Source: Phytobacter palmae
GTDB lineage: Bacteria > Pseudomonadota > Gammaproteobacteria > Enterobacterales > Enterobacteriaceae
NCBI GenBank assembly: GCA_900112785.1
Contig: FONB01000005.1
Location: 310,001 to 374,000, forward strand
Reading direction: 5' to 3'
Length of the DNA: 64,000 nt
Shown here: one piece after another, positions 32,366 to 64,000 of the stretch
Position numbering within the stretch: position 1 is the stretch's first letter
How the letters are laid out: each line of letters opens with the position of its first letter
Made by a program: the position numbers and the translations under genes
Notes under the pieces: model-generated
What the model saw: only the letters and a program-made list of their open reading frames with translations
What the model was told of the DNA's origin: nothing
Databases searched by the model: none

Positions 32366-33586
32366 ATGCTGACAGATCACCTGGATGCGCTTAATCTGCT
32401 GACGACACCGGTCTGGGTAGTTTCACCCGAGACTGAAGAGCTGCTTTTTACCAACGCAGCGGCGAAGAAATTGACCGCAGAGGGTTCATTACGGGATTTG
32501 CGAACCGGTAAATATTCCGCCTGGGCGCAGCACAATCTGGCCATGTACCTGCCGGGCCTCAGGAATCAGCATAATATTATCGAAGTATGGACTGTTCATA
32601 TTGATGGCGAGGAGGTCAGTTTAAGTTGTAAGGCCTCTCTGCGTGAAATCACTGGCGTGGGTGAAGTGATTCTTTTTGAAGGATTATCAGCGGGAACTTC
32701 CGCCAGACTAAAAGCCAGCCGCTCAAAAACATACCGCCCCCGCAAGCAGGGTTTTTATGCCCGCTTTTTCTATACCAACTCCGCGCCCATTCTGCTTATT
32801 GATCCCGCCAGAGACGGCCTCATCGTTGACGCCAATCTCGCCGCATTACGCTTTTACGGCTACTCCTACGATGAAATGTGCCAAAAGCACACCTGGGAAA
32901 TCAACACGCTAGGGCGCGGTATTCTGCCGGTGATGGCAGAGATCGCTCATCTGCCTGGCGGCCACAGGCCGCTCAATTTTGTGCACAGGCTGGCAGATGG
33001 TTCCACCCGCCATGTTCAGACCTACGCCGGTCCGGTTGAAATCTATAATGAGCGACTGATGCTTTGCATCATCCACGACATTACCGAACAGAAACGCCTT
33101 GAGCAGGAACTGGAATATGCCGCGCACCGTGATTTACTCACCGGTTTGCTGAACCGCCGGCAGTTCTACCACCTGACTGAACATGTTATGCCGACTGCTT
33201 TCGATTTCAGTCTGTTGCTGGTAGATACCGACCATTTTAAACGCATCAATGATCAGTATGGTCATCAGAAAGGTGACGAAGTCCTGATACAACTTTCCCG
33301 CACACTTGAACAACATTGCCGACGCGGAGACTACGTGTTTCGCTGGGGAGGCGAAGAATTTCTCTTACTGCTGCCGCATACGACCGAGGAAATCGCTATT
33401 GGTGTCGCTGAGCAGTTACGTGAAGCCGTCGCCAGTATCAGTATTCCCCAACTGCCAGGCTTTACTGTGAGTATCGGCGTTGCGCGCCACCTGGCGGGAG
33501 AGTCACTGGATGAGCTGTTTAAGCGTGTCGATGAAGCGTTGTATCGCGCGAAAAACAGCGGGCGTAATAAAGTGCTGGCGGCCTGA
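32366..33586 (+). CDS. dgcM: Diguanylate cyclase DgcM (PAS-PAS-GGDEF)
   Basis: A 406-residue cytoplasmic protein matching E. coli DgcM (YdaM), which with PdeR and MlrA controls csgD and curli formation. An N-terminal PAS-like segment (LNLLTTPVWVVSPETEELL) is followed by a second PAS domain (about 130-250, GFYARFFYTNSAPILLIDPA) and a GGDEF domain with FRWGGEEFLLLLP; GGEEF is an active variant. The E. coli partner PdeR is also encoded in this window (56.5-58.5 kb). A purine-rich AAGGGGATAAA precedes the ATG. Confidence 0.95.
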   Translation: MLTDHLDALNLLTTPVWVVSPETEELLFTNAAAKKLTAEGSLRDLRTGKYSAWAQHNLAMYLPGLRNQHNIIEVWTVHIDGEEVSLSCKASLREITGVGEVILFEGLSAGTSARLKASRSKTYRPRKQGFYARFFYTNSAPILLIDPARDGLIVDANLAALRFYGYSYDEMCQKHTWEINTLGRGILPVMAEIAHLPGGHRPLNFVHRLADGSTRHVQTYAGPVEIYNERLMLCIIHDITEQKRLEQELEYAAHRDLLTGLLNRRQFYHLTEHVMPTAFDFSLLLVDTDHFKRINDQYGHQKGDEVLIQLSRTLEQHCRRGDYVFRWGGEEFLLLLPHTTEEIAIGVAEQLREAVASISIPQLPGFTVSIGVARHLAGESLDELFKRVDEALYRAKNSGRNKVLAA

Positions 33587-49248: not shown

Positions 49249-50240
49249 TGCCACTGCTGGATATCCGCAATCTGACCATTGAAGTGAAGACCGGTGAAGA
49301 CTGGGTTAAAGCCGTTGATCGGGTTAGCCTGACGCTGGCCGAAGGGGAAATCCGCGGTCTGGTGGGGGAATCTGGTTCCGGTAAGAGTCTTATCGCCAAA
49401 GCCATTTGCGGTGTGACGAAAGAGAACTGGCGTGTTACTGCCGACCGTATGCGTTTTGATGATATCGATCTTATGCGGCTTTCGTCACGCGAGCGTCGCA
49501 AGCTGCTGGGCCATAACGTCTCCATGATTTTTCAGGAGCCGCAGTCGTGTCTCGACCCGTCAGAACGTATTGGCAAACAGTTAATGCAAAACATCCCCGG
49601 CTGGACGTGGAAAGGTGGCTTTTTCCGTCGTTTTGGCTGGCGCAAACAGCGCGCTATCGAGCTGCTTCACCGGGTGGGTATTAAAGATCATAAAGATGCG
49701 ATGCGCAGTTTCCCCTATGAACTGACCGAAGGGGAATGCCAGAAAGTCATGATCGCTATCGCACTGGCTAATCAACCGCGCCTGCTGATTGCCGATGAGC
49801 CGACAAACGCAATGGAGCCAACAACTCAGGCGCAAATTTTCCGTCTGTTAACCCGACTGAACCAGAACAACAACACTACCATTTTGTTAATCAGTCATGA
49901 CTTGCAGATGCTGAGCAAATGGGCCGACCGTATTAACGTGATGTACTGCGGTCAAACTGTGGAGACCGCACCAAGCGAAGAACTGGTGACGACACCCCAT
50001 CACCCCTATACTCAGGCGCTGATTCGTGCGATACCTGATTTTGGTAGCGCCATGCCGCATAAAAGCCGCCTGAATACCATGCCAGGTGCTATTCCGCTGC
50101 TCGAACATCTGCCGATTGGCTGTCGCCTTGGACCACGCTGCCCCTACGCCCAGCGCAAATGTGTAGAAAGACCGCGTCTGAGTGGTGCGAAAAACCATCT
50201 CTATGCCTGTCATTTCCCGTTAAATATGGAGAGAGAGTGA
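49248..50240 (+). CDS. sapD: ABC transporter ATP-binding protein SapD
   Basis: A 330-residue ATPase of the peptide-transporter class. Walker A is [10 protein letters not shown]; the signature loop is degenerate ([14 protein letters not shown], with TEGEC for LSGGQ); Walker B is [11 protein letters not shown]; the C-terminal oligopeptide-transporter extension has Cys in [15 protein letters not shown]. In E. coli SapD ATP binding is needed for TrkG/H potassium uptake (it is TrkE). sapF begins 1 base beyond its stop. Confidence 0.95.
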
Positions 50241-50241
50241 G

Positions 50242-51048
50242 ATGGTTGAAACGCTGCTCGAAGTGCGCAATCTGAGTAAGACTTTCCGCTATCGTACCGG
50301 CTGGTTTCGCCCGCAAACCGTCGAAGCGGTGAAGTCGCTGAGTTTTACTCTGCGTGAGAAGCAAACGCTGGCGATTATTGGCGAGAACGGCTCCGGTAAA
50401 TCGACCCTGGCGAAGATGCTGGCAGGTATGGTTGAACCCTCCACCGGAGAGTTACTGATTGACGATCATCCTTTGCATTACGGCGACTATTCTTTTCGTA
50501 GCCAACGCATCCGCATGATATTTCAGGATCCGTCGACCTCATTAAACCCACGTCAGCGCATCTCGCAGATCCTTGATTTTCCGCTGCGTCTGAATACAGA
50601 CCTTGAGCCGGAGGCGCGGCAAAAACGTATCTATGAAACGTTGCGCATGGTAGGCCTGTTACCCGATCACGCCAGCTACTACCCGTATATGTTCGCGCCA
50701 GGGCAGAAGCAACGCCTGGGACTTGCTCGCGCGCTGATATTACGTCCGAAAGTCATCATTGCGGACGAAGCGCTGGCATCGCTGGATATGTCGATGCGTT
50801 CGCAACTCATTAATCTGATGCTGGAATTACAGGAAAAACAGGGCATTTCATATATTTATGTGACTCAGCATATCGGTATGATGAAGCATATCAGCGATCA
50901 AGTTCTGGTGATGCACCAGGGTGAAGTGGTTGAACGTGGTAGTACCGCGAGCGTACTGGCCTCGCCGCTGCATGATCTGACTAAACGTTTGATTGCCGGT
51001 CATTTTGGTGAGGCATTAACCGCCGATGCCTGGCGGCAGGATCGCTGA
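50242..51048 (+). CDS. sapF: ABC transporter ATP-binding protein SapF
   Basis: A 268-residue ATPase partner of SapD. Walker A is GENGSGKSTL, the signature is again unusual (FAPGQKQRLGLARAL, APGQK for LSGGQ) and Walker B is VIIADEALASLD, where Ala-Leu replaces the more common Pro-Thr. It is the last gene of sapABCDF; no clear terminator follows directly. Confidence 0.95.
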   Translation: MVETLLEVRNLSKTFRYRTGWFRPQTVEAVKSLSFTLREKQTLAIIGENGSGKSTLAKMLAGMVEPSTGELLIDDHPLHYGDYSFRSQRIRMIFQDPSTSLNPRQRISQILDFPLRLNTDLEPEARQKRIYETLRMVGLLPDHASYYPYMFAPGQKQRLGLARALILRPKVIIADEALASLDMSMRSQLINLMLELQEKQGISYIYVTQHIGMMKHISDQVLVMHQGEVVERGSTASVLASPLHDLTKRLIAGHFGEALTADAWRQDR

Positions 51049-51905
51049 TAACTCTGTTTATGCTTTTCGCACCTGGCAAATAGCACCGTGATAGCTCTTC
51101 ATGTGACGTCATGGGTTAGTTGCCAGGTTCTCTGACGGATCGTTTGCTGGCCCTGGTTGTACATGACGAGTGGAATGAATATCAAAGATTGTCATTCTAT
51201 CCTGCCCTCTTGCGAAGGTATTACTTAATAAAGGATGAATATTTAAGTTCTGCCCAACGGCTCATGCGAACCAAAAAAATGGCTTTTGTATTTATATAAA
51301 AAATAAACAATGTGATTTACGTGCAAATATAGCAATCAATAATTATTACTGGTATTGCCTTTATGCTTGTAAGTATGATTGCCCTTTTTATGGAAGCCGT
51401 TGATGCCTGACTTTTACCGGGTACAGGCCTCGCAGCCAGCCTCATCCGCTTTTCAGTCACATCAGATATAATAATATTACATGTAAGGCCGTTGATTACC
51501 GGAGAATGTCGATACGTCTACGACACACATATTTTCCTGAAGATATTTTGTTTTCCGCGGTAAAAATTTCAAAAAAATAGAGTGGCTAATAAATTAAAGA
51601 TGAGATGTCTGCTGAAAATAATGCGCTTTTTGAAAAGCTATATGACTAAACATCACGCAGAACCCTCATTTCCCGCTGGTTGGATGACCCGAAATGACAG
51701 ACTAGTGATATACTTTTGCGGTATCGAACTGTTTATGATTCAGTCTGAAACAAATTCCCGGCACGGTCTCCTGTCACGGAAAAAACGTGACACCAGCAGC
51801 GGCTGCTGGGATAATTCGATTTCGTTTTGATTTATGTTGAAATGGCAATCATAACCTGTTGATTGTTAAAGTAAATAAAAGCAATGACTATAAGGATTAA
51901 AAGCT
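51049..51905. other. Long intergenic region before fabI with tandem hairpins
   Basis: These 857 bases, A+T-rich over much of their length, hold no gene I can support; the frame at 51582-51830 lacks a ribosome site and ends through the hairpins. At 51772-51792 TGTCACG-N7-CGTGACA and at 51793-51809 CCAGCAG-CGG-CTGCTGG are two perfect, directly abutting palindromes about 100 bases before the fabI ATG. They may be operators or leader structures of fabI. Confidence 0.5.
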
Positions 51906-52694
51906 ATGGGTTTTCTTACCGGTAAGCGCATTCTGGTAACGGGTGTTGCCAGCAAACTTTCCATCGCCTACGGTATCGCGCAAGCTATGCATCGCGAAGG
52001 CGCTGAACTGGCGTTCACTTATCAGAACGACAAACTGAAAGGCCGTGTGGAAGAGTTTGCCGCTCAACTGGGTTCCAGCATCGTACTGCCTTGTGACGTT
52101 GCGGAAGATGCCAGCATCGAAGCCCTGTTCAGCGAACTGGTTAAAGTATGGCCGAAATTTGACGGTTTCGTTCACTCCATCGGTTTTGCGCCGGGCGACC
52201 AGTTGGACGGCGACTACGTTAATGCCGTAACCCGCGATGGCTTCAAAATCGCACATGACATCAGCTCCTACAGCTTTGTGGCACTCGCTAAATCCTGCCG
52301 CGAAATGCTGAACCCGGGCTCCGCGCTGCTGACCCTGTCCTATCTGGGCGCAGAACGAGCTATTCCTAACTACAACGTTATGGGTCTGGCTAAAGCCTCT
52401 CTGGAAGCGAACGTTCGTTACATGGCGAACGCGATGGGTCCGGAAGGTGTTCGTGTTAACGGCATCTCTGCTGGTCCGATCCGCACGCTGGCTGCGTCTG
52501 GTATCAAAGATTTCCGTAAAATGCTGTCTCATTGCGAAGCGGTTACTCCGATTCGCCGTACCGTTACCATTGAAGATGTGGGTAACACGGCTGCCTTCCT
52601 GTGTTCTGACCTGTCCGCAGGTATTTCCGGTGAAGTTGTTCACGTTGATGGCGGTTTCAACATCGCAGCAATGAATGAGCTGGAACTGAAATAA
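51906..52694 (+). CDS. fabI: NADH-dependent enoyl-ACP reductase FabI
   Basis: A 262-residue short-chain dehydrogenase that performs the last reduction of each fatty-acid elongation cycle; target of triclosan. The NADH loop [16 protein letters not shown] and the catalytic Tyr-x6-Lys in [11 protein letters not shown] (Tyr156/Lys163 in E. coli numbering) are present, and Gly93 ([10 protein letters not shown]) is the wild-type residue at the classic triclosan position. AAGGATT precedes the ATG; a terminator follows. Confidence 0.97.
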
Positions 52695-52701
52695 TCTCTC
52701 G

Positions 52702-52722
52702 CGCCCCCTGTCTCAGGGGGCG
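52702..52722 (+). terminator. fabI terminator
   Basis: CGCCCCCTG-TCT-CAGGGGGCG forms a nine-base-pair stem 8 bases after the stop, followed by AATTTCATT. The 223 bases from here to yciW contain no other supported feature. Confidence 0.75.
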
Positions 52723-52945
52723 AATTTCATTACCCTTTATCTCCTTTTGTTCCTTATCTTCTTTAGCCTGCCCACCTACTCTGCGGCCCGCACGCTGTAA
52801 CGTTTTATATATCTTTCTGATATTTATTATCACGTAACATTCTTTCATCCCTTTCACCGCTTACGCCAGGATAAAACAGCGAAAAAGATCCGCGTACCAG
52901 CATAACGACGAGTCCGGATCGCCACTTTCAGACCAAGGAACGACC

Positions 52946-54103
52946 ATGGAACAACGCCGTGTTTCCGGCAAAAGCCACTGGTATCATGAAACCCAGTCGA
53001 GCGCCCGTCAGGCTCAGGTGCTACCCTTAGTTCCCGAAGCGGCTACAGTTGACGACCCGTTTCTGTTAAATCTCACCCTGCCGGATTGGTTAACTCAGTT
53101 GTGCAGCAGCTGGCTGGCGCCGGCGCGAACACTGTATAAAATCCTCTTTCCTCAGCGCGTGACGATCAACCGACTGCACACTTTCAGCGCCTATGACCGC
53201 CTGAGTACGGCATTGACTGTCGCTCAGGTATACGGCGTGCAGCGCTTGTGTAATCACTATGCCGCCCGTCTGGCTCCCCTTCCCGGCCCCGACTCGTCTC
53301 GAGAGAGCAATCGCCGTCTGGCACAAATCACGCAATATGCCCGCCAGCTTGCGTTGTCACCTGGCGTTATCAACGCCCGCGCCCGCCATCAACTTGATGA
53401 AGTGGGGTTAACAGAATATGACATTATCCTGATGGGCCAGATTATCGGTTTCATTAGTTTTCAGGCGCGTGCCATCGCTACCTTTCAGGCTCTACAAGGG
53501 CAGCCCGTACGTTTGATCCCCGGCATGGAGATGCAGCAAGAGGCAGAACAGACCTTGTTTGTCGGGACGCAAACCCAGTGGACGCCAGGGATTGCACCGG
53601 TCGATTTACGCACTGCCAGCTCGCGTCAGATGGAATCCCTTGCCAACTGGCAGCCACTGCCTGCTTTTCAGCTTCTCGCACCCGTACTGGCACATGAGTA
53701 CCCTTCGCTTGATGCGCTGGGAGAAATTTACAGCGGCGCGCAGCCAGCGCTGGTGGACGACGACATAAAGCAGCTGGTCACCCTCTACACCGCGCGAATT
53801 AACGGCAGCGTAAATTGCTTTAGCGAAACCAGGCAAGGCTGGAGCGGCGATGAAGATCTTGCCGAAGCGGTACGCATTGGTGATCGGGTACTCAAACGCC
53901 CTGGGCAAACACGAAGTAAAGAAGGGGCCATTGCGCAAGCGGTCCAGATGCTAACCTGCGCGCCCGATCGTTTCAGTCCGGCACATTTCGCACAGTTGAA
54001 GGACAACGGAATCAACGAAACATCAGCCGTCGAATTACTTATCTGGTGTGCATTGTGCGGCTGGTTAAACCGTCTGAAAATTGCCTTTGGTGATATCACC
54101 TGA
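52946..54103 (+). CDS. yciW: YciW, carboxymuconolactone-decarboxylase-like protein
   Basis: A 385-residue protein matching E. coli YciW in its N-terminus (MEQRRVSGKSHWYHETQSSA) and in position between fabI and rnb. It has two AhpD/CMD-like helical halves (about 85-200 and 255-380). The AhpD-type redox CxxC is not intact: the equivalent stretch reads RINGSVNCFSETRQ with a single Cys. YciW is linked in E. coli to cysteine/sulfur metabolism, without a proven reaction. GACCAAGGAACG precedes the ATG. Confidence 0.9.
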   Translation: MEQRRVSGKSHWYHETQSSARQAQVLPLVPEAATVDDPFLLNLTLPDWLTQLCSSWLAPARTLYKILFPQRVTINRLHTFSAYDRLSTALTVAQVYGVQRLCNHYAARLAPLPGPDSSRESNRRLAQITQYARQLALSPGVINARARHQLDEVGLTEYDIILMGQIIGFISFQARAIATFQALQGQPVRLIPGMEMQQEAEQTLFVGTQTQWTPGIAPVDLRTASSRQMESLANWQPLPAFQLLAPVLAHEYPSLDALGEIYSGAQPALVDDDIKQLVTLYTARINGSVNCFSETRQGWSGDEDLAEAVRIGDRVLKRPGQTRSKEGAIAQAVQMLTCAPDRFSPAHFAQLKDNGINETSAVELLIWCALCGWLNRLKIAFGDIT

Positions 54104-54242
54104 TTCTGGTACAAGCGCCCTGGTTCAGCGTGTGGCTTTATGCTGATTCAGGGACAGGCATTTTGCTGAAACAGCGCTTGCTGCAACAGGCAGATTCGCG
54201 TAAAACTGTCAGCCGCTCTTTCAGCCACGAAAATACAAAATT

Positions 54243-56177
54243 ATGTTTCAGGACAACCCGCTGCTAGCGCAGCTAAAACAGCAACTTCATTCCCAAACAC
54301 CCCGTGCGGAAGGTGTCGTTAAAGCCACGGAAAAGGGCTTTGGTTTCCTCGAAGTCGATGCGCAAAAAAGCTACTTTATTCCGCCGCCACAGATGAAAAA
54401 AGTGATGCACGGCGATCGTATTGTCGCTGTGATCCATACCGAAAAGGAACGCGAATCCGCTGAACCGGAAGAGTTGGTTGAGCCGTTTCTGAGCCGTTTT
54501 GTTGGCCGGGTACAGAAGAAAGATGATCGTCTTTCTATCGTGCCTGACCACCCGTTGATTAAAGATGTTATCCCTTGCCGCGCTGAGCGTGGCGTGACGC
54601 ACGATTTCAAAGACGGTGACTGGGCAGTTGCTGAAATGCGCCGTCACCCGCTCAAAGGTGATCGCAGCTTTTATGCTGAGCTGACACAGTTCATCACCTT
54701 TGGCGATGACCATTTTGTGCCATGGTGGGTCACTCTGGCGCGACACAATCTTGAAAAAGAAGCGCCAGACGGCGTATCGACCAGCATGCTGGATGAAGGT
54801 CTTGAACGTATCGATTTAACCGCGCTGGATTTTGTCACCATCGACAGTGCCAGTACCGAAGATATGGATGACGCGCTGTATGTTACTGAGACTGCTGATG
54901 GCAAACTGCAACTGACCGTTGCGATTGCCGACCCAACCGCGTGGATCGCAGAAGGCAGCAAGCTGGACAATATCGCGAAAGTGCGTGCCTTTACCAATTA
55001 CCTGCCGGGCTTCAACATTCCGATGCTGCCGCGTGAACTGTCTGATGACTTGTGTTCACTGCGCGCCAATGAAGTTCGCCCGGTGCTGGCTTGCCGCATG
55101 ACCTTAGATGCGCAAGGCGCTATCGAAGACAATATCGAGTTCTTTGCGGCGACCATTACATCGAAAGCCAAACTGGTATATGACGAGGTTTCCGACTGGC
55201 TGGAAAACAGTGGCAGCTGGCAGCCGCAGAACGAGGCTATCGCCACACAAATTCGTCTGCTGCATCGCGTATGCCAGGCGCGTTCTCAATGGCGCCAGAC
55301 CCATGCGCTGGTATTCAAAGACCGTCCTGATTATCGTTTTATTCTTGGTGAAAAAGGCGAAGTACTGGATATCGTTGCCGAACCGCGTCGAATCGCGAAT
55401 CGTATCGTGGAAGAGTCAATGATTGCCGCCAATATCTGTGCTGCCCGCGTGCTGCGCGACAAGCTTGGTTTTGGTATTTACAACGTGCATATGGGCTTTG
55501 ATCCGGCAAATAGCGAACAGCTTGCCGCACTGTTGAAAGGCCACGGTATGCATGTGGATGCGGAAGAAGTGCTGACACTGGATGGCTTCTGTAAACTGCG
55601 TCGTGAACTGGATGCGCAGCCTTCTGGTTTCCTCGACAGTCGCATTCGCCGTTTTCAGTCCTTTGCGGAAATCAGCGTCGACCCGGGCCCGCATTTCGGT
55701 CTGGGCCTCGAAGCTTACGCCACCTGGACGTCCCCTATTCGTAAGTATGGCGATATGATTAACCATCGTCTGCTGAAAGCGGTAATCAAAGGTGAAACAG
55801 CAGAACGTCCACAGGCGGAAGCTACCGTGCAGATGGCTGAACGTCGTCGTCTGAACCGCATGGCGGAACGTGATGTCGGCGACTGGCTATATGCTCGCTT
55901 CCTGCAAAACAAAGCGGGTACCGAAGCCCGTTTTAGCGCTGAGATTATCGATATCAGCCGTGGCGGCATGCGTGTTCGTCTGGTAGATAACGGCGCCATT
56001 GCGTTTATCCCGGCGCCGTTCCTTCATGCGGTACGCGATGAATTAGTGTGCAGCCAGGAAACCGGGACTGTGCAAATTAAAGGCGAAACCGTTTATAAAG
56101 TGACAGACGTCATTGATGTCACTATTGCGGAAGTTCGTATGGAAACGCGGAGTATTATCGCGCGCCCAGCCGCCTGA
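54243..56177 (+). CDS. rnb: Exoribonuclease II
   Basis: A 644-residue 3'-5' exoribonuclease that degrades single-stranded RNA processively. Two N-terminal cold-shock domains ([16 protein letters not shown]), a central RNB catalytic domain with the Asp cluster [13 protein letters not shown] and the [16 protein letters not shown] block, and a C-terminal S1 domain ([20 protein letters not shown]) are in the usual order. Length equals E. coli RNase II. Confidence 0.97.
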
Positions 56178-56190
56178 TAACTCAGGTTGT

Positions 56191-56228
56191 TTTGCTCCCT
56201 CAGATCTCCCGGGGGAGCAAAAATTTCT
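56191..56228 (+). terminator. rnb terminator
   Basis: TTTGCTCCC pairs with GGGAGCAAA around a 13-base loop containing AGATCTCCCG, followed by AAATTTCTTT. It is 13 bases past the rnb stop. Confidence 0.7.
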
Positions 56229-56488
56229 TTGTGAAAGCGATACCACCCTCATTTTTTTTCAAATCCCCACAAAAAGCGGTAAAAACGACCACAATAAAAA
56301 TAACTTTGCACACACTGGTGGCGTTTTATGCATTTTTTCGTACCTGCTGTTCTTTTGTCCGGGACTCGTTCTATTATAAGATTGTAAATAAAAACAATAC
56401 CTTCATCCCTGATTACCCCTTATTTAAAGGGGGTTAATCCGTCATTAGATGAGTAACCGTTGCGCTTTTTGGTGGGTTGGGAGACAGC

Positions 56489-58480
56489 ATGAAAGACGAT
56501 CAGGAACAGAATCTACTGTTTCGTTACCTGGGTTCGGGCAGCCCATTCTGGCGATTGACCGCTGACAGCAACGCGTTACATTTCGCTCCTGATGAAGAGT
56601 CTGAATCAAGTCAGGTGGTGACATTAAATGATGAGCAGGCAGCGCAACTGCGCCAAATGACCGTTATTACTTCCAGCCTGACCATGCATATTTCATTATT
56701 TGGCGATAACGTTCCTGTGCATTTAGTCGGCCGCAAAATTAATAAAACCGAATGGGCCGGAACCGCATCAGCATGGAATGATACTTCGTCCGTGGCGCGG
56801 GATTTGGTGCAGGGTCTCTCCTTTGCCGAACAGGTTGTTTCCGAAGCCAATTCTGTGATCGTCATACTGGACCGCAACGGCAATATCCAGCGCTTTAACC
56901 GGCTCTGTGAAGAATATACAGGGTTAAAAGAGCACGAGGTCATTGGGCAAAACGTTTTTAAACTCTTTATGAGTCATAACGAAGCCGAAGCTTCGAAACG
57001 CAATATCTCTGAATTTTTCCGTAACGGCGCCTCTTATGAAGTTGAACGCTGGATTAAGACGCGTAAGGGACAGCGCCTGTTTTTATTTCGCAATAAATTC
57101 GTCCACAGCGGTAGCGGAAAAAACGAAATATTTCTTATTTGTTCCGGTACAGATATTACCGAAGAACGCCGGGCACAAGAGCGTTTACGGGTTTTAGCGA
57201 ATACCGACACGATCACGGGTTTGCCCAATCGTAATGCGATTCATGAATTAATCAGCAATGCGATTGATAATCGTGGCGACACGCAAATTGGTATCGTTTA
57301 TCTCGATCTGGATAATTTCAAGAAAGTAAATGATGCCTATGGCCATATGTTCGGCGATCAGCTGTTACAGGCCGTGGCGCTGGCGATTTTAAGCTGCCTG
57401 GATGAAGGCCAGACCCTTGCACGCCTGGGAGGTGACGAGTTTATCGTCCTGGCGACAGATTCTTCACAGAGCGCGCTGGAAGCGATGGCGTCGCGTATTA
57501 TCACCCGCCTGCGCCAGCCCTTCCGGATTGGCCTTATCGAGATTTACACCGGTTGTTCGTTGGGAATATCTCTTGCCCCGCAGCATGGTAATGATCGTGA
57601 AAGTATTATTCGCAACGCCGATACCGCAATGTATATCGCAAAAGAAAACGGACGCGGAAAGTTTTGTGTTTTCACCCCGGAAATGAATCAGCGGGTTTTC
57701 GAGTATTTATGGCTTGATACCAATCTGCGTAAAGCACTCGATAATGACCAACTGGTGATTCACTATCAGCCCAAAGTAACCTGGCGCGGCGAAGTGCGCA
57801 GCCTGGAAGCACTGGTACGGTGGCAATCGCCTGAGCGTGGGTTAATCCCGCCACAGGATTTTATCGCGTATGCAGAAGAGTCCGGGCTGATTGTCCCTCT
57901 GGGACGCTGGGTTATGCTCGATGTCGTGCGTCAGGTCGCGAAATGGCGCGATAAAGGTATCAATTTGCGTGTGGCGGTAAACGTCTCGGCACGACAGCTG
58001 GCAGACCAGTCAATATTCAGCGATTTGAAACAGGCTTTGCATGATCTGAATTTCGAATATTGCCCTATAGACGTTGAACTGACAGAGAGCTGTCTGATTG
58101 AAAACGAGGATCTGGCGCTGTCGGTGATACAACAGTTCAGCGAGTTGGGTTCACAGGTGCATCTTGATGACTTTGGCACCGGTTATTCTTCCCTTTCACA
58201 GCTGGCGCGTTTCCCTATAGATGCGATAAAACTTGATCAATCCTTCGTTAAGGATATCCATAAACAATCAGTATCACAGTCGCTGGTGCGGGCGATTGTT
58301 GCGGTAGCGCAGGCGCTGAACCTGCAGGTGATCGCAGAAGGAGTCGAAAACGCGAAAGAAGACGCCTTCCTTACCAAGAATGGCGTCAACGAACGGCAGG
58401 GATTCTTATTTGCTAAACCCATGCCCGCTGCCGTATTCGAGCGATGGTATAAGCGCTATCTGGCGCGGAAAAAGGGTTAG
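56489..58480 (+). CDS. pdeR: PdeR/RpfR: PAS-GGDEF-EAL c-di-GMP phosphodiesterase and likely DSF receptor
   Basis: A 663-residue protein orthologous to E. coli PdeR (Gmr/YciR) and to Cronobacter/Burkholderia RpfR. An N-terminal ~100-residue domain ([19 protein letters not shown] start), known in RpfR as the RpfF-interaction domain, is followed by PAS (about 105-215), GGDEF ([13 protein letters not shown], intact) and EAL ([33 protein letters not shown], intact). In RpfR, DSF-type cis-2 fatty acids bind PAS and stimulate EAL hydrolysis of c-di-GMP. ATG 56489 follows GGGAG; the frame opens at 56477. It is convergent with rpfF, with overlapping stops (TTAG). Confidence 0.93.
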
Positions 58481-59346
58481 CTTGCTTTACTTAAACTGGT
58501 GGACGAATGCCGGTTCTGCAACTGCACCAGACGTTCCATATAGGCCACGTCTTTAGGCTGCAGGCAGAAGGCGGCGTCGACCCAGTCTTCGGTAATGTCC
58601 ATAAGCTCACTACGAGGCAGTTGCATTACCCGTTGACGCGCTCGCAACATCGCGCGGATACCATTGAGCCGGGGTTGCAGCGTATCGATAAACGTACGAA
58701 CGGCCAGATAGCTTTGACCGGGCTCAAAAAGCTGATCCACCAGCCCATGTTGTTCATACCATTCCGCAGTGTGGGATTCGCCTTTATAGATGAGTTCCTC
58801 CGCAAGCTTCATCCCTGAGCGGCGGGCCACCAGCGAATAGCCCCCCATGCCCGGGAACAAGTTAAAAGCGATTTCCGGAAAGCCGAGGCGCGCATCACGT
58901 TGTGCCAGTACAAAATGGTGCGCCAGCGCCGCTTCAAAACCACCGCCTAATGCACTACCTTCGACCATGGCCAGAGTAATCGCACCGGTATCAAACCCGC
59001 GCGACGCCGCATGTACGCAATCGACGCAAGCGCGTGCATACGCACGCAATGCTTCCCGGCGACCATTTTGAATGCACTCAACGAAAAAATTCAGATCGCC
59101 CCCTGCATTGTACATACCGGGAACCAGCGAGCCCGTTACCCAAAAATCCACGGCAAATCCCGCTTGCCGGACAAGCCAGGAGATGTTCATGATCTCTTCG
59201 ATTAACACATGGTTAAAGCAGGGGCGTGGCTGGGCACGCAACATCATCCATACAGTGCGGCGCTCTTCTTCGTAGTACCCCGAAAGTTGCGTAAAACGTT
59301 CATTATCCGTAAAAAGTTTACACGTAGCCTGGTTGATAACTGTCAT
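58477..59346 (-). CDS. rpfF: DSF synthase RpfF (enoyl-CoA hydratase family)
   Basis: A 289-residue crotonase-fold enzyme, the same length as Xanthomonas RpfF. RpfF dehydrates 3-hydroxyacyl-ACP to the cis-2 enoyl form and releases the free fatty acid (diffusible signal factor or BDSF). The two catalytic glutamates are present: Glu138 in [12 protein letters not shown] and Glu158 in [29 protein letters not shown] forms the oxyanion region. E. coli lacks this gene. It faces its likely receptor gene pdeR, sharing 4 bases at the stops. GGAGG (minus strand) lies 8-12 bases before the ATG. Confidence 0.93.
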
Positions 59347-59540
59347 AGACTTACTCCTCCGGTAATAAAAGCGCGGTGTGCGCAGAGCAAGACTAATCCA
59401 GCAGCAACCTCAGCTGTATGTAACTTAATGAATATATAATTGGTATTTATAATATTTTGAAATTTCGCTTTTCCCCTTCTCTTTTTAAACTGTTTTCTGC
59501 ATCATTCAATTTGTTAATTTTCAAACATAAAGGTGAAGAC

Positions 59541-59723
59541 ATGGCCGACATTGATGTAAAGCAACTGACGAGACGGCTTGATACCGTGCTGGACATTCTG
59601 GTTGCGGGCGATTACCAGTCCGCCATTCGTAACCTGGAAATTCTGAAGGCTGAGCTACAGCACCTCGATAATGCGGATAAATCCGCTTCTGCTGGCAACC
59701 CTAAAACACCCTGGGAAGTCTGA
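59541..59723 (+). CDS. yciZ: UPF0509 small protein YciZ
   Basis: A 60-residue helical protein matching E. coli YciZ: RLDTVLDILVAGDYQSAIRN, EILKAELQHL and the terminal KTPWEV. The function is unknown. The ATG at 59541 after AAAGGTGAAG is preferred; the frame is open to 59457 but that extension is A+T-rich leader. It lies between rpfF and yciT, on the same strand as yciT. Confidence 0.88.
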   Translation: MADIDVKQLTRRLDTVLDILVAGDYQSAIRNLEILKAELQHLDNADKSASAGNPKTPWEV

Positions 59724-59812
59724 CTGATACCCTCTCGCGATAACGGACCACAGGAACATGGCGCCGTTATAGCTTTTTATTAATAGACGTAACGACTCTG
59801 AAAGTAGTGGCT

Positions 59813-60571
59813 ATGAATTCCCGACAACAACTAATATTGCAAACGGTAATTGATAAGGGGCGTATGAGCGTTTCGGATCTGTCAAAAATGACAGGGGTTT
59901 CCGAAGTAACCATCCGACAGGACCTCAATACCCTTGAAAAACAGAGTTACCTGCGCCGTACGCATGGTTTTGCCGTTCCGCTGGATAGCGATGACGTCGA
60001 AACGCGTATGATGAATAACTACACCGTGAAGCGTGAACTTGCAGACTACGCCGCGTCGCTGGTAAATGACGGCGAAACGGTTTTCATCGAAAACGGTAGC
60101 TGTAACGCGCTGCTGGCCCGTCGCCTGGGCGAGCAATCAGGCATCACCATCATTACCGTCAGTAGCTATATTGCGCACTTGCTTAAAGATGCCCTGTGCG
60201 ACGTTATCCTGCTGGGCGGCATTTATCAGAAGAAAAGTGAAAGCGTTGTCGGCCCCCTCACCCGGCAATATGTTCAGCAAATGCATTTCAGCAAGGCATT
60301 TATTGGCATTGATGGATGGCTACCTGACACCGGTTTTACCGGCAGAGATATGATGCGTTCTGAAGTCGTCAACGCCGTCCTGGAAAAAGGCAATGAAGCC
60401 ATTGTGCTGACTGATAGTTCAAAATTTGGCGCAGTACATCCCTACACGCTGGGCGTGGGCAGTCGCTTTAACCGAGTGATCACTGACACCGGCATTCCCG
60501 CTGATGCTCAGCGCCAGTTACAGGAATCTGGTCTTATTGTTGATATCGTCAACACAACCACTTTGCTTTAA
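59813..60571 (+). CDS. yciT: DeoR-family transcriptional regulator YciT
   Basis: A 252-residue repressor-type protein with an N-terminal DeoR helix-turn-helix ([20 protein letters not shown], then [15 protein letters not shown]) and a C-terminal ISOCOT sugar-phosphate-sensing domain (about 75-235; [29 protein letters not shown]). In E. coli YciT affects osmB and genes of the osmotic response, and osmB follows here too. The start at 59813 matches the E. coli protein; a GTG two codons earlier is possible. Confidence 0.93.
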
Positions 60572-60578
60572 GAGAAAC

Positions 60579-60603
60579 AGCCCGCTCAGCCGGGCTATCT
60601 CCT
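60579..60603 (+). terminator. yciT terminator
   Basis: AGCCCG-CTCAGC-CGGGCT with ATCTCCTTC behind it, 8 bases after the yciT stop. Confidence 0.7.
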
Positions 60604-60826
60604 TCATATCTGAGACGATTCTGACTCGCCAATTAAGACTATTTACCCTGCCGGCAAACATGTTCAGACGTAAAATTATATTCAGCGATATAACAGGACG
60701 TGACTATCACACGCGTGAATTTAGTAACACCTGCGCCACAAGGTTTTGCGGAAAGTCTTTAGGACGGGCTACAGGCACTATACTTAAAGAGAACACTTTC
60801 CGTGAATCAACTATTCAGGAGAAAGT

Positions 60827-61048
60827 ATGATGATGTTAACGAGCAAAAAAATGGCAGCCGCTCTGCTGGCTGTAACCCTGGCAATGTCTCTGAGTGCATG
60901 CGGTCACTGGTCTAAACGCGATCGTAATACAGCAATCGGTGCCGGCGCGGGTGCTTTGGGTGGTGCTGTCTTAACCGATGGTAGCACGCTGGGTACACTG
61001 GGTGGCGCGGCGGTTGGTGGTATCATCGGTCACCAGGTTGGTAAATAA
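60827..61048 (+). CDS. osmB: Osmotically inducible lipoprotein OsmB
   Basis: A 73-residue lipoprotein with signal KKMAAALLAVTLAMSLSAC (lipobox LSAC) and a Gly-rich glycine-zipper segment (AIGAGAGALGGAVLTDGSTL, then GTLGGAAVGGIIGHQVG). OsmB is made at high osmolarity and in stationary phase; a role in cell surface or aggregation has been suggested. AGGAG lies well placed for the ATG at 60827. The 255-base leader has no other gene. Confidence 0.94.
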   Translation: MMMLTSKKMAAALLAVTLAMSLSACGHWSKRDRNTAIGAGAGALGGAVLTDGSTLGTLGGAAVGGIIGHQVGK

Positions 61049-61112
61049 TTTATTTCTTCACGGCATCTCAAACAGAATAAAAGATACTTTCTTTCAGGTC
61101 TGAATACGCAGT

Positions 61113-61147
61113 AAAAAAAGCCGCGATTCCTGTCGCGGCTTTTCTTT
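61113..61147. terminator. osmB/yciH bidirectional terminator
   Basis: AAAAAAAGCCGCGA-TTCC-TGTCGCGGCTTTTCTTT has A- and T-runs on both sides, 65 bases after osmB and 11 bases after the yciH stop. Confidence 0.88.
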
Positions 61148-61157
61148 GACAGTAATT

Positions 61158-61484
61158 TTACCCACCTGCCAGTTTAACTTTCATACCTTTCGCTTCCAGT
61201 AACGATTTAAGCAAATCGCGCTTATCGCCCTGAATTTCAATGACGCCCTCTTTTACTGAGCCGCCACAGCCACATTTCTTTTTAAGTTCTGCCGCCAGGG
61301 CCGCAAGCACGGCATCATCACCGTCAACGCCTGTGATCAGGCATACACCCTTCCCTTTGCGTCCACTGGTCTGACGCTGTATGCGCACAACACCGTCGCC
61401 TTTCGGGCGCTCAGCGGGGGCTTTTTGTTCATTGATGCGCCCGGTTTCGGTGGAATAAACCAGACGGCTATTGTTATCGCTCAT
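61158..61484 (-). CDS. yciH: SUI1/eIF1-like translation factor YciH
   Basis: A 108-residue homologue of eukaryotic eIF1, which may monitor start-site fidelity and repress translation under stress. The SUI1 domain includes [20 protein letters not shown] and [20 protein letters not shown]. Two ATGs exist; 61484 is used (E. coli begins the same way) and overlaps the pyrF stop as ATGA, so it is translated by coupling; GGAGG lies inside the pyrF end. Confidence 0.94.
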
Positions 61485-62221
61485 CATACCTCCAGGCCAA
61501 GAGAGGCGTTAATATCGCGTAGGGTCTGTGCGGGATCAGCAGACTGCGTCACCGGGCGCCCAATCACCATATAGTCCACACCCGCTGCCAGCGCCTGCTC
61601 CGGGGTCATAATACGCCGCTGATCGCCCACCTCACTACCCTGCGGACGAATGCCTGGCGTCACCAGCCTGAATTGTTGACCAAAAGCCGCTTTAAATCGA
61701 ACCGCCTCTTGTGCAGAGCAGACGACGCCATCCAGACCACATTGCTGTGTGAGGCCCGCCAGACGTTCTGCGTAGTCGGCAGGGCTAGCGTTGATACCCA
61801 AACCTTGCAGATCACTGGCTTCCATACTGGTAAGTACCGTGACCGCGATAAGAAGCGGTGCATCATTACCGAAAGGAACCAGCGCCTCTTTAGCAGCAGT
61901 CATCATACGTGCGCCGCCAGAAGCATGTACGTTCACCATCCACACGCCTAAATCTGCTGCTGCTTTTACTGCATGCGCTGCCGTGTTCGGGATGTCATGA
62001 AATTTTAAGTCCAGGAACACGTCAAAACCGCGTTGTTGCAGGTCACGAACCAGTTGCGGACCAAACAACGTGAACATCTCTTTGCCGACTTTCAGCCTGC
62101 AATCACGGGGATCGATGCGGTCGACAAAGGCCAGGGCCTTATCACGGTTATCGTAGTCAAGCGCAACCACAACCGGAGAAGACGTTAACGCGCGGGAAAT
62201 AGATGAAGCAGTGGACGTCAT
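61484..62221 (-). CDS. pyrF: Orotidine-5'-phosphate decarboxylase
   Basis: A 245-residue TIM-barrel enzyme for the last step of UMP synthesis. The catalytic Lys/Asp set is in [12 protein letters not shown], and [14 protein letters not shown] forms the phosphate-binding loop. It is in an operon lapA-lapB-pyrF-yciH, as in E. coli, although 187 bases separate it from lapB, leaving room for its own promoter. Confidence 0.97.
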
Positions 62222-62408
62222 GATGAGACCTTCTTTGATGAGGGCACCCGCTCAGGCGCGAATAATAAACGGCGAGCATTCTACCTGCGCTCACGCGGAA
62301 TTGACAGGTTCTATTCACCTCCTGCCAGGCGATGCGAGTGCCGGGCTAAGGTGTGTGAAGTTAAAGCAGTCATTAGTATGTTGTAACTAAAGTAGGCTTT
62401 TTTTTAAA

Positions 62409-63578
62409 CTACTGCCCGTCGAGACCACGGATAGGCTTAACGGTGGACCAGGCGCGGCATGACGGACAATGCCAGTACATCGTAAAAGCAGTAAACCCAC
62501 ATTTATGGCAGCGATAACGCGGCTTACTGCGAATTTGCTCACCCACCATATCTCGCAGCACCATCAGGCTCTCTTTTGCGCGCCCTTCCTCTGCTTCGTT
62601 CAGATGGTAATCCATTAATTTGTGGAAAACGCGCATTGTTGGGTGGCGCTGCAATTGGCGAGTGATGTACATCTGCGCAGGATCCTGCCCTTCGCGATTC
62701 TCCATGATTTCCGCCAGCATCAATTCCGCAGTAGCCCCCGTGTTCTCTTCGACACAGCGCTGGAGAAATGCGGCCCATTCATCCATTTTACCCAGATGCT
62801 GATAGCACACCTGCAACATTTCCAGCGTTTCGCTGACCAGTTCTTTATCCTGATCGATGACGCGCAGAAGGCTCTCTACTGCTTTGCTGTATTCCCCTTT
62901 CGCCATAAACACGCGACCCGTCATGATCGACACGCGCGGACTATCGCGGTCGGCGGCAGCACCTTTTTTCAACAATGCCATCGCCTTGTCCATATCGTCA
63001 TTACCCATTTGCTGTAACGCCAGTTCACAGTAGAAATGGGCAATTTCGCCTCGCTGTTTATCTTTACCCAGCTTCACCAGCCGCTCCGCAACATCGATGG
63101 CTTTCTGCCAGTCGCTGGTAGCCTGATATATCTGTAATAGCTGCTGGAGCGCGCTGATGCGAAAATCAGTCTCATCAACGAGTTGATTGAACATATCTTC
63201 CGCACGGTCATACATCCCCGCGGCCATATAATCACGGCCCAGTTGCTGTACGGCAAGCAATCGCTGGTCATAGGAGAGCGACGCGCTCTCCATCAGGGTC
63301 TGGTGAATTCGGATCGCGCGATCAACTTCGCCGCGGGAACGGAACAGGTTTCCGAGGGTGAGATGGGCTTCGACAGTGCCGGTATCCTCTTTGAGCATGT
63401 CGAGGAACAGGTCCACCGCCTTGTCTTGTTGGTTGCTCAGAAGCAGGTTCATCCCGGCTACGTAATCACGTGAAAGCCGATTTGCCTCATCCTGCTTAGT
63501 TTGCTGAGCATTTCTGCGCCCCATATACCAGCCGTATGCAGCCGCAACAGGTAACAGCAGAAACAACAACTCCAACAT
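62409..63578 (-). CDS. lapB: Lipopolysaccharide assembly protein LapB
   Basis: A 389-residue inner-membrane protein (formerly YciM) with one N-terminal helix, about nine TPR repeats and a C-terminal rubredoxin-type metal site (CHKCGFTAFTMYWHCPSC). LapB presents LpxC to FtsH for degradation and is itself held back by PbgA/YejM, thereby balancing LPS and phospholipid synthesis. It follows lapA by 6 bases. Confidence 0.96.
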   Translation of the reverse strand: MLELLFLLLPVAAAYGWYMGRRNAQQTKQDEANRLSRDYVAGMNLLLSNQQDKAVDLFLDMLKEDTGTVEAHLTLGNLFRSRGEVDRAIRIHQTLMESASLSYDQRLLAVQQLGRDYMAAGMYDRAEDMFNQLVDETDFRISALQQLLQIYQATSDWQKAIDVAERLVKLGKDKQRGEIAHFYCELALQQMGNDDMDKAMALLKKGAAADRDSPRVSIMTGRVFMAKGEYSKAVESLLRVIDQDKELVSETLEMLQVCYQHLGKMDEWAAFLQRCVEENTGATAELMLAEIMENREGQDPAQMYITRQLQRHPTMRVFHKLMDYHLNEAEEGRAKESLMVLRDMVGEQIRSKPRYRCHKCGFTAFTMYWHCPSCRAWSTVKPIRGLDGQ

Positions 63579-63584
63579 ATATGA

Positions 63585-63893
63585 TTATTCCTTTACTACC
63601 GGCGTACCGGGGTCCACAGCAGCCGTGGTAGCAGGCGCGAGTTGGTGCTCAAGACGTTTAATTTTCCGCTCCGCACGCGCGAGAGAAACACGTACGCGCA
63701 ACCAGAACAGGCCGCAGATCAGCCAGCCAATTACAAAACCAGCGGCAAAAAGGACGGCCAGTAATGTCGAAATGCGATATTCGCCCTGGGCGAGCAGATA
63801 ATTGAAGGTCACCTGCTGATCGTTTTGTGCACCAAGCGTGACCGAAACGACAAAAATCGCCAGCACCAATAAAAAAATGAGTAAATATTTCAC
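63585..63893 (-). CDS. lapA: Lipopolysaccharide assembly protein LapA (GTG start)
   Basis: A 102-residue protein (formerly YciS) with two membrane helices (about 1-20 and 42-64) and a cytoplasmic coiled coil (LARAERKIKRLEHQL). It is co-expressed with and binds LapB. The start is GTG at 63893, as in E. coli: GGGAAG stands before it and the only nearby ATG is out of frame; the frame is open to 63947 but the added residues are polar and would precede the first helix. The remaining 107 bases of the window hold its promoter region. Confidence 0.93.
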   Translation of the reverse strand: MKYLLIFLLVLAIFVVSVTLGAQNDQQVTFNYLLAQGEYRISTLLAVLFAAGFVIGWLICGLFWLRVRVSLARAERKIKRLEHQLAPATTAAVDPGTPVVKE

Positions 63894-64000
63894 ATTACTT
63901 CCCGTTATGTGGTTATGAGCGAGTAAGTTATGTTCAACTGATCGCATCCAGCCTTATAAACTACCATTTTAGCGCCTGGCGCGAAATGGAAATGCGTAAC

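Follow-up and report, generated by a model that had tools for sequence, protein, structure and literature searches.

An intact RpfF/RpfR pair in Phytobacter palmae and the release of sensor residues in relatives without rpfF

Does the tail-to-tail gene pair rpfR (pdeR) and rpfF of Phytobacter palmae form a complete module for diffusible signal factor (DSF) signalling through cyclic di-GMP (c-di-GMP), and could its fatty-acid signal reach the switch that controls curli? We addressed this question in a window of 64,000 nucleotides (contig FONB01000005.1, positions 310,001 to 374,000), in which the pair occupies positions 56489-59346. We consider it likely, with a probability of about 0.88, that the locus holds an intact and mostly vertically inherited RpfF/RpfR module acting as a DSF signal/c-di-GMP system. 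A comparison across the family further revealed that residues fixed in sensors accompanied by rpfF are freed to change once rpfF is lost, above all in the N-terminal half of the protein.

The sensor gene (56489-58480, + strand) encodes a putative c-di-GMP phosphodiesterase and DSF receptor of 663 amino acids, starting at an ATG that lies 12 bases inside the mechanical open reading frame, which begins at a TTG. The protein scored 1290.9 bits against the NCBIfam PdeR model NF007474 (cut-off 782) and matched the Pfam PAS, GGDEF and EAL families. Its extra N-terminal domain, the RpfF-interaction (FI) domain (residues 1-95, 56489-56773), matches the crystallised FI domain of Cronobacter turicensis RpfR (6dga, E 7e-36, 62/95 identical). 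It is followed by the DSF-binding PAS domain (residues 115-224, 56831-57160), with 97 of 110 residues identical to the C. turicensis structure 6dgg (E 1e-60). All five published contacts of the Burkholderia signal BDSF (S169, N172, Y183, R187 and N202) are found in this domain under the same numbering. The GGDEF domain (residues 237-390, 57197-57658, PF00990) carries its motif at residue 314, and the EAL domain (residues 412-644, 57722-58420, PF00563) carries EAL at 440 and DDFGTG at 560.

On the opposite strand, rpfF (58477-59346, -) encodes a predicted crotonase-family DSF synthase of 289 amino acids, homologous over its full length to B. cenocepacia RpfF (5fus, 6dgn). The match to 6dgn spans residues 6-282 with 175/277 identities (E 4e-122), F44 and F88 are common to the two proteins, and the crotonase model NF006452 was passed with 413.8 bits (cut-off 177). 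The two catalytic glutamates, E138 and E158, are glutamate in 98/98 full-length RpfFs of the family. The two stop codons share the four bases TTAG at 58477-58480. Hence the architecture proposed by the first-pass annotation, with overlapping stops, a full-length RpfF bearing Glu138 and Glu158, and a PAS-GGDEF-EAL protein with an additional N-terminal domain, was confirmed at these coordinates. The FI domain, the PAS domain with its contacts, the GGDEF and EAL motifs and the convergent rpfF neighbour that mark RpfR are present, as are the full-length homology and the paired glutamates that mark RpfF. Judged by every sequence determinant examined, the module is complete, as had been claimed.

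Published biochemistry of the homologues indicates how such a module works. RpfF dehydrates and hydrolyses acyl-acyl carrier protein (acyl-ACP), yielding BDSF (PMC6361424, PMC4698668), the FI domain binds near the RpfF tunnel and inhibits the enzyme (PMC6361424), and BDSF bound to the PAS domain activates the EAL phosphodiesterase (PMC6361424, PMC4698668). In C. turicensis, c-di-GMP rose 3.4-fold in an rpfF mutant and 3.9-fold in an rpfR mutant, and csgA and bcsA transcripts were raised in both (PMC4698668). By analogy, the FI domain of the Phytobacter RpfR would bind RpfF and restrain it, and the accumulated signal would enter the PAS pocket and switch on hydrolysis of c-di-GMP by the EAL domain. 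The lower c-di-GMP would in turn reduce production of the curli/cellulose matrix, perhaps partly via DgcM, MlrA and CsgD, although the DgcM/MlrA step is speculative. The product, the FI inhibition and the phosphodiesterase activation are thus presumed from homologues, and the role published for Cronobacter and Burkholderia RpfF/RpfR is the most likely one here. These homologues bring about the production of a cis-2 fatty acid and react to it (PMC4698668, PMC6361424). The first-pass annotation had noted that RpfR binds such fatty acids and, through its N-terminal domain, RpfF, but it left out the published inhibition of RpfF by FI.

We aligned 140 full-length PdeRs from the family, 98 from genomes with rpfF (RpfF+), 40 from genomes without it (RpfF-; 39 from the family sample and one E. 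coli strain, L-form0) and two standing beside a broken rpfF. Rows at contig ends (G192, G058), degenerate pdeR genes (G044, G041) and one broken PdeR frame in an RpfF+ genome (G216) were excluded, while G241, whose rpfF sits outside the fetched stretch, was counted as RpfF+. At least one of the five contacts was changed in 22/40 RpfF- sensors and in none of the 98 RpfF+ or the two broken-rpfF sensors. The changes were S169A, N172Y, H, K or D, Y183F or W, and R187L, arising 10-12 times on RpfF- branches depending on the tree. At site 169, which is serine in all 98 RpfF+ rows, parsimony was tied, and two of three trees place one or two changes on RpfF+ branches. The single E. coli PdeR sequence carries R187L together with D26S, A29V, N121H and V123A. 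Relative to the literature examined, the contrast of these contacts with and without rpfF is new: we found no report of decaying DSF contacts in PdeRs lacking RpfF, in a search that was thin on subscription journals, and a whole-word search of the available papers returned none containing both Phytobacter and rpfF.

This contrast bears on two other ways of understanding the pair. RpfF might be mainly an acyl-ACP thioesterase/dehydratase of lipid metabolism, with FI limiting the drain and signalling minor or absent. Such a role would fit the signal of wild-type C. turicensis, which stayed below detection (PMC4698668). On the other hand, it is the PAS contacts, and not the FI sites alone, that are constant only together with rpfF (0/98 versus 22/40 changed), and in C. 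turicensis rpfF mutants show the 3.4-fold rise in c-di-GMP while added BDSF partly restores the biofilm phenotype (PMC4698668). We regard a mainly metabolic RpfF as unlikely. Alternatively, the PAS domain of all PdeRs may sense endogenous saturated C12:0, with rpfF a dispensable accessory. RpfR PAS did copurify with C12:0, and the authors of that work speculate that C12:0 could regulate E. coli Gmr (PMC6361424). However, the affinity for BDSF is about 900 times higher than that for C12:0 (dissociation constants of 877 nM and 800 uM, respectively, PMC6361424), and such sensing predicts ligand residues that stay fixed after rpfF loss, contrary to what we observed in those 22 sensors. We hold this to be slightly less likely still than the metabolic role.

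Several observations weigh against an intact signalling module with rpfF-dependent sensor residues. All five contacts are kept in 18/40 RpfF- sensors, as C12:0 sensing would also have it, and release at the contacts exceeds that at the remaining RpfF+-fixed positions of PAS by a modest margin only (permutation P 0.03-0.14). RpfF reached 177.4 bits against the 550 needed for the NCBIfam RpfF equivalog model NF053515, so that its assignment rests on Burkholderia RpfF. In C. turicensis, complementation was only partial, biosensor induction was seen with plasmid-borne rpfF only and not with the wild type, and virulence was lowered by rpfF but not rpfR mutation, for which the authors suspect a further receptor (PMC4698668). 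Since even that wild type fails to induce the biosensor, a Phytobacter culture free of DSF would say little against signalling. Finally, over all 140 rows the FI and PAS domains change more than GGDEF/EAL on RpfF- branches, but this whole-domain excess becomes marginal without Erwinia-like genomes (bootstrap P 0.04-0.14). Much of it came from Erwinia-like RpfF+ genomes with a diverged EAL domain, and domain-wide relaxation was therefore dropped as the main test. We relied instead on a fixed-site test with a pseudo-group control.

This test considered the 221 positions invariant in the 98 RpfF+ rows, 84 of them in residues 1-235 and 137 in residues 236-663. At least two changes on RpfF- branches were seen at 20/84 N-terminal versus 3/137 C-terminal positions (Fisher P 4.9e-7). 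The bias held for at least three changes (12/84 versus 0/137, P 5.4e-6) and for at least one (33/84 versus 18/137, P 1.3e-5). As a control, we drew 200 pseudo-groups of RpfF+ subtrees matched in total branch length and again counted sites with at least two changes. N-terminal release averaged 2.1 in the pseudo-groups versus 21.4 in the true group, a value reached by 0/200 draws, while C-terminal release (mean 5.8 versus 7.8) was reached by 40/200. After rpfF loss, release of the sites fixed in RpfF+ genomes is thus concentrated in the N-terminal half. The most-released sites were A29, S27 and D26 in FI and V185, V123, N172 and N121 in PAS. On likely strands, V185 takes every second position with Y183 and R187, as N121 does with V123, which would make these residues face the pocket. 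Overall, by these patterns, important parts of the sensor tend to degenerate in bacteria that lost rpfF, and the residue contrast offers a simple sequence lead on whether a given PdeR is likely to hear DSF.

A loss-only model requires 12 rpfF losses or breakages on the tree, or 11 on a tree of GGDEF-EAL only. Taken singly, four of the 12 clades (G079, the G072 group, the G135 group and a 22-genome clade including E. coli) had more N-terminal than C-terminal release at an uncorrected P < 0.05. Three others (G076, the G175 group and G011) had a changed contact with an excess that was not significant. The short-branch clades G309, G230, G362, G258 and G368 (lengths 0.01-0.06) had unchanged contacts and at most one released site per half, as expected of recent rpfF losses.

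Rather than being lost repeatedly, rpfF could have been gained repeatedly beside pdeR. The gene can evidently move or duplicate, as a distant second copy in G255 indicates. Yet RpfF distances correlate with those of the PdeR catalytic half (r 0.861, 97 genomes), and in 79 of the 80 named loci, which are the best 80 among 291 confirmed, rpfF keeps its convergent position behind pdeR, either immediately or beyond an insert. The remaining locus is a stretch without pdeR. Two rpfF copies are broken (G309, G368), and the RpfF- genomes G230, G258, G345, G362 and G076 sit in genera with RpfF+ genomes. Repeated gain is therefore improbable in our view, about as much so as a metabolic RpfF, and mostly vertical inheritance is preferred.

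We surveyed 391 family genomes (at least 95% complete, evenly drawn), counting rpfF at E 1e-60 or better. It was present in 101, the two broken copies included, and an FI-PAS pdeR in 142; all 101 rpfF-bearing genomes also have the sensor, and 41 have the sensor without rpfF. The same nesting was seen in an earlier sample of 197 genomes (rpfF in 46; the sensor, scored by its FI domain alone, in 66). Among the 80 named loci, the stops overlap by four bases in 51, are 0-100 bases apart in 17 and more than 100 bases apart in 11, one of which (L066) is counted there merely because its pdeR frame is broken. Plasmid-borne rpfF matches with E 1e-40 or better numbered 12 among 72,556 records and came from Burkholderia (5), Methylobacterium (4), Bosea (2) and Sphingomonas (1). 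In E. coli, pdeR occurs in 5372/5426 genomes and blastn gave no rpfF match, in line with the earlier statement that this species keeps only pdeR. The suggestion that the pair is rare was overstated, since it is widespread and, in a 2015 review (PMC4504480), the RpfR-RpfF system is already named from Enterobacter, Cronobacter, Serratia and Yersinia. That review also gives the convergent layout for Burkholderia, as does PMC6361424. The locus thus adds one more ordinary case to a system already described.

Some loci show features of their own. The second rpfF copy of G255 (C7:1005864-1006724, 77% identical to the query) shares a contig with the copy linked to pdeR, at a distance of about 280 kb. 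The rpfF genes of G368 (L151) and G309 (L171) are broken (one internal stop; a match in a single piece for the C-terminal half only) and stand beside PdeRs keeping all five contacts; they are apparently recent losses. Conversely, in L195 (G216, with a PdeR of 308 amino acids) and L066 the PdeR frame is broken beside an intact rpfF, so that the synthase was apparently retained and the sensor lost, unless these are sequencing errors. L153 (G345) is RpfF- but comes from a genus that includes RpfF+ genomes; its PdeR carries N172D and Y183F and groups with the PdeR of another RpfF- genus, which makes gene replacement possible. In four Buttiauxella loci (L031, L038, L051, L052), about 1.4-1.5 kb separate the rpfF and pdeR stops, and the insert holds what we take, by eye, to be a LysR-type regulator and a carboxymuconolactone-decarboxylase-like gene. 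The 1.1-kb gap of L050, a Pluralibacter metagenome-assembled genome, holds two small tandem genes with double-glycine leaders that look microcin-like by eye.

Could the signal reach the curli switch? In E. coli, PdeR is described as keeping both DgcM and MlrA switched off as long as c-di-GMP has not risen, and direct PdeR-DgcM-MlrA contacts are described as well (PMC5052742, PMC5635695). The first-pass annotation had placed DgcM at 32366-33586 (+), a candidate PdeR partner. This gene is indeed DgcM-like: it has blastn matches in 5334/5426 E. coli genomes, none covering 80%, and the three E. coli matches listed are all annotated dgcM (39-72% covered). Its profile-library matches were GGDEF and PAS, with no DgcM-specific model among them. 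CsgD (83%) and MlrA (77%; two weaker paralogues reach 53% and 40%) were also found, so that orthologues of PdeR, CsgD and MlrA and the DgcM-like protein all occur in the host genome, and a single protein can bring the signal and the curli switch together. Given these proteins and the raised csgA and bcsA in C. turicensis mutants, a link from DSF to curli is plausible here. The DSF input known from Burkholderia and Cronobacter and the DgcM/MlrA output known from E. coli coexist in this genome, making a joint circuit testable in one organism. E. coli itself cannot tell whether the signal reaches DgcM, because its PdeR sequence carries R187L and D26S. More generally, with contacts and FI residues released after rpfF loss and R187L in E. 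coli, its PdeR is a poor proxy for the sensing step.

We tentatively go one step further, although we would give the idea somewhat less than an even chance: E. coli PdeR may be a deafened quorum-sensing receptor, whose RpfF+ relatives gate the DgcM/MlrA/CsgD curli switch directly by the fatty-acid signal. Its ancestors would have sensed RpfF-made DSF. After the 11-12 losses or breakages of rpfF, both the surface that docks RpfF (near D26/S27/A29) and the pocket for the ligand (N121, V123, S169, N172, V185, R187) would have drifted, while the catalytic half, presumed to dominate the DgcM contacts, would have stayed fixed. Phytobacter and its RpfF+ relatives would keep both halves. If this were true, these residues would allow a prediction, for any genome, of whether DSF is heard.

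The genes run rnb-pdeR-rpfF-yciZ-yciT in Phytobacter, and E. coli has rnb-pdeR-yciZ-yciT. In the 75 bases upstream of rpfF (59347-59421, -), a GGATTAGTCT-type motif is accompanied by a GCGC hairpin and by the ribosome-binding site. Comparing 80 rpfF leaders (loci L003-L082, with no shuffle control run), we found a GGATTAGTCT-like motif before rpfF in 72. In 69 of these 72, the motif is followed by the best short stem, which begins 11-13 bases from the motif start (for example TGCGN..N'CGCA, with paired changes). The other eight leaders have a different layout, some with a GATCTAA..TTAGATC-like palindrome. Motif and stem might possibly represent a promoter plus a 5' stem-loop or operator. A second box, CTTCTCTTTT..TTTTTGCATCAT (59476-59506, +), lies upstream of yciZ, is conserved in most aligned genomes with or without rpfF, and perhaps controls yciZ. 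In E. coli, the slot of rpfF is occupied by the annotated ymiD (42 amino acids; L148 5802-5930, -), which overlaps the pdeR end. We rejected ymiD as an rpfF relic: the slot alignment shares only the yciZ-upstream box with no rpfF trace, and tblastn of RpfF at the ymiD locus found nothing. No paper about ymiD was among the matches listed in a literature search. Promoter and terminator scans of 56150-59900 gave no more matches than shuffled sequence, and a tRNA scan of 50000-64000 found none.

The host genome comprises 5.28 Mb in 41 contigs, with the window on contig 12, and its RpfF is 99% identical to that of Phytobacter ursingii and 98% to that of P. diazotrophicus. An nifH gene above the family cut-off (476.7 bits) lies on the same contig (306512-307336), 2.7 kb before the window, which supports genetically the description of the strain as a diazotroph.

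Among known systems, Xanthomonas RpfF/RpfC/RpfG shares with Phytobacter a crotonase-family synthase with two glutamates, but its RpfF is only a distant match (3m6m, 156.7 bits) and the receptor type differs. E. coli PdeR (YciR/Gmr), a trigger phosphodiesterase acting with DgcM and MlrA, is an orthologue in the same place but, unlike that of Phytobacter, stands without rpfF and, in the one sequence considered, with the five substitutions given above. The B. cenocepacia pair (5fus, 6dgn) resembles ours in the 175/277 identities of RpfF, both glutamates, F44/F88 and the convergent genes; strain H111 was found to lack homologues of the partners that PdeR has in E. coli (PMC9684580), and the published output is BerB/Bep. 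The closest likeness is to C. turicensis RpfF/RpfR (6dga, 6dgg), which belongs to the same family. The host here is a nifH-bearing Phytobacter, and a csg/bcs output, as seen in the C. turicensis mutants, would be the corresponding one. The two agree in domain order and in the five BDSF contacts, with no sequence difference of note in FI and PAS, the two domains compared.
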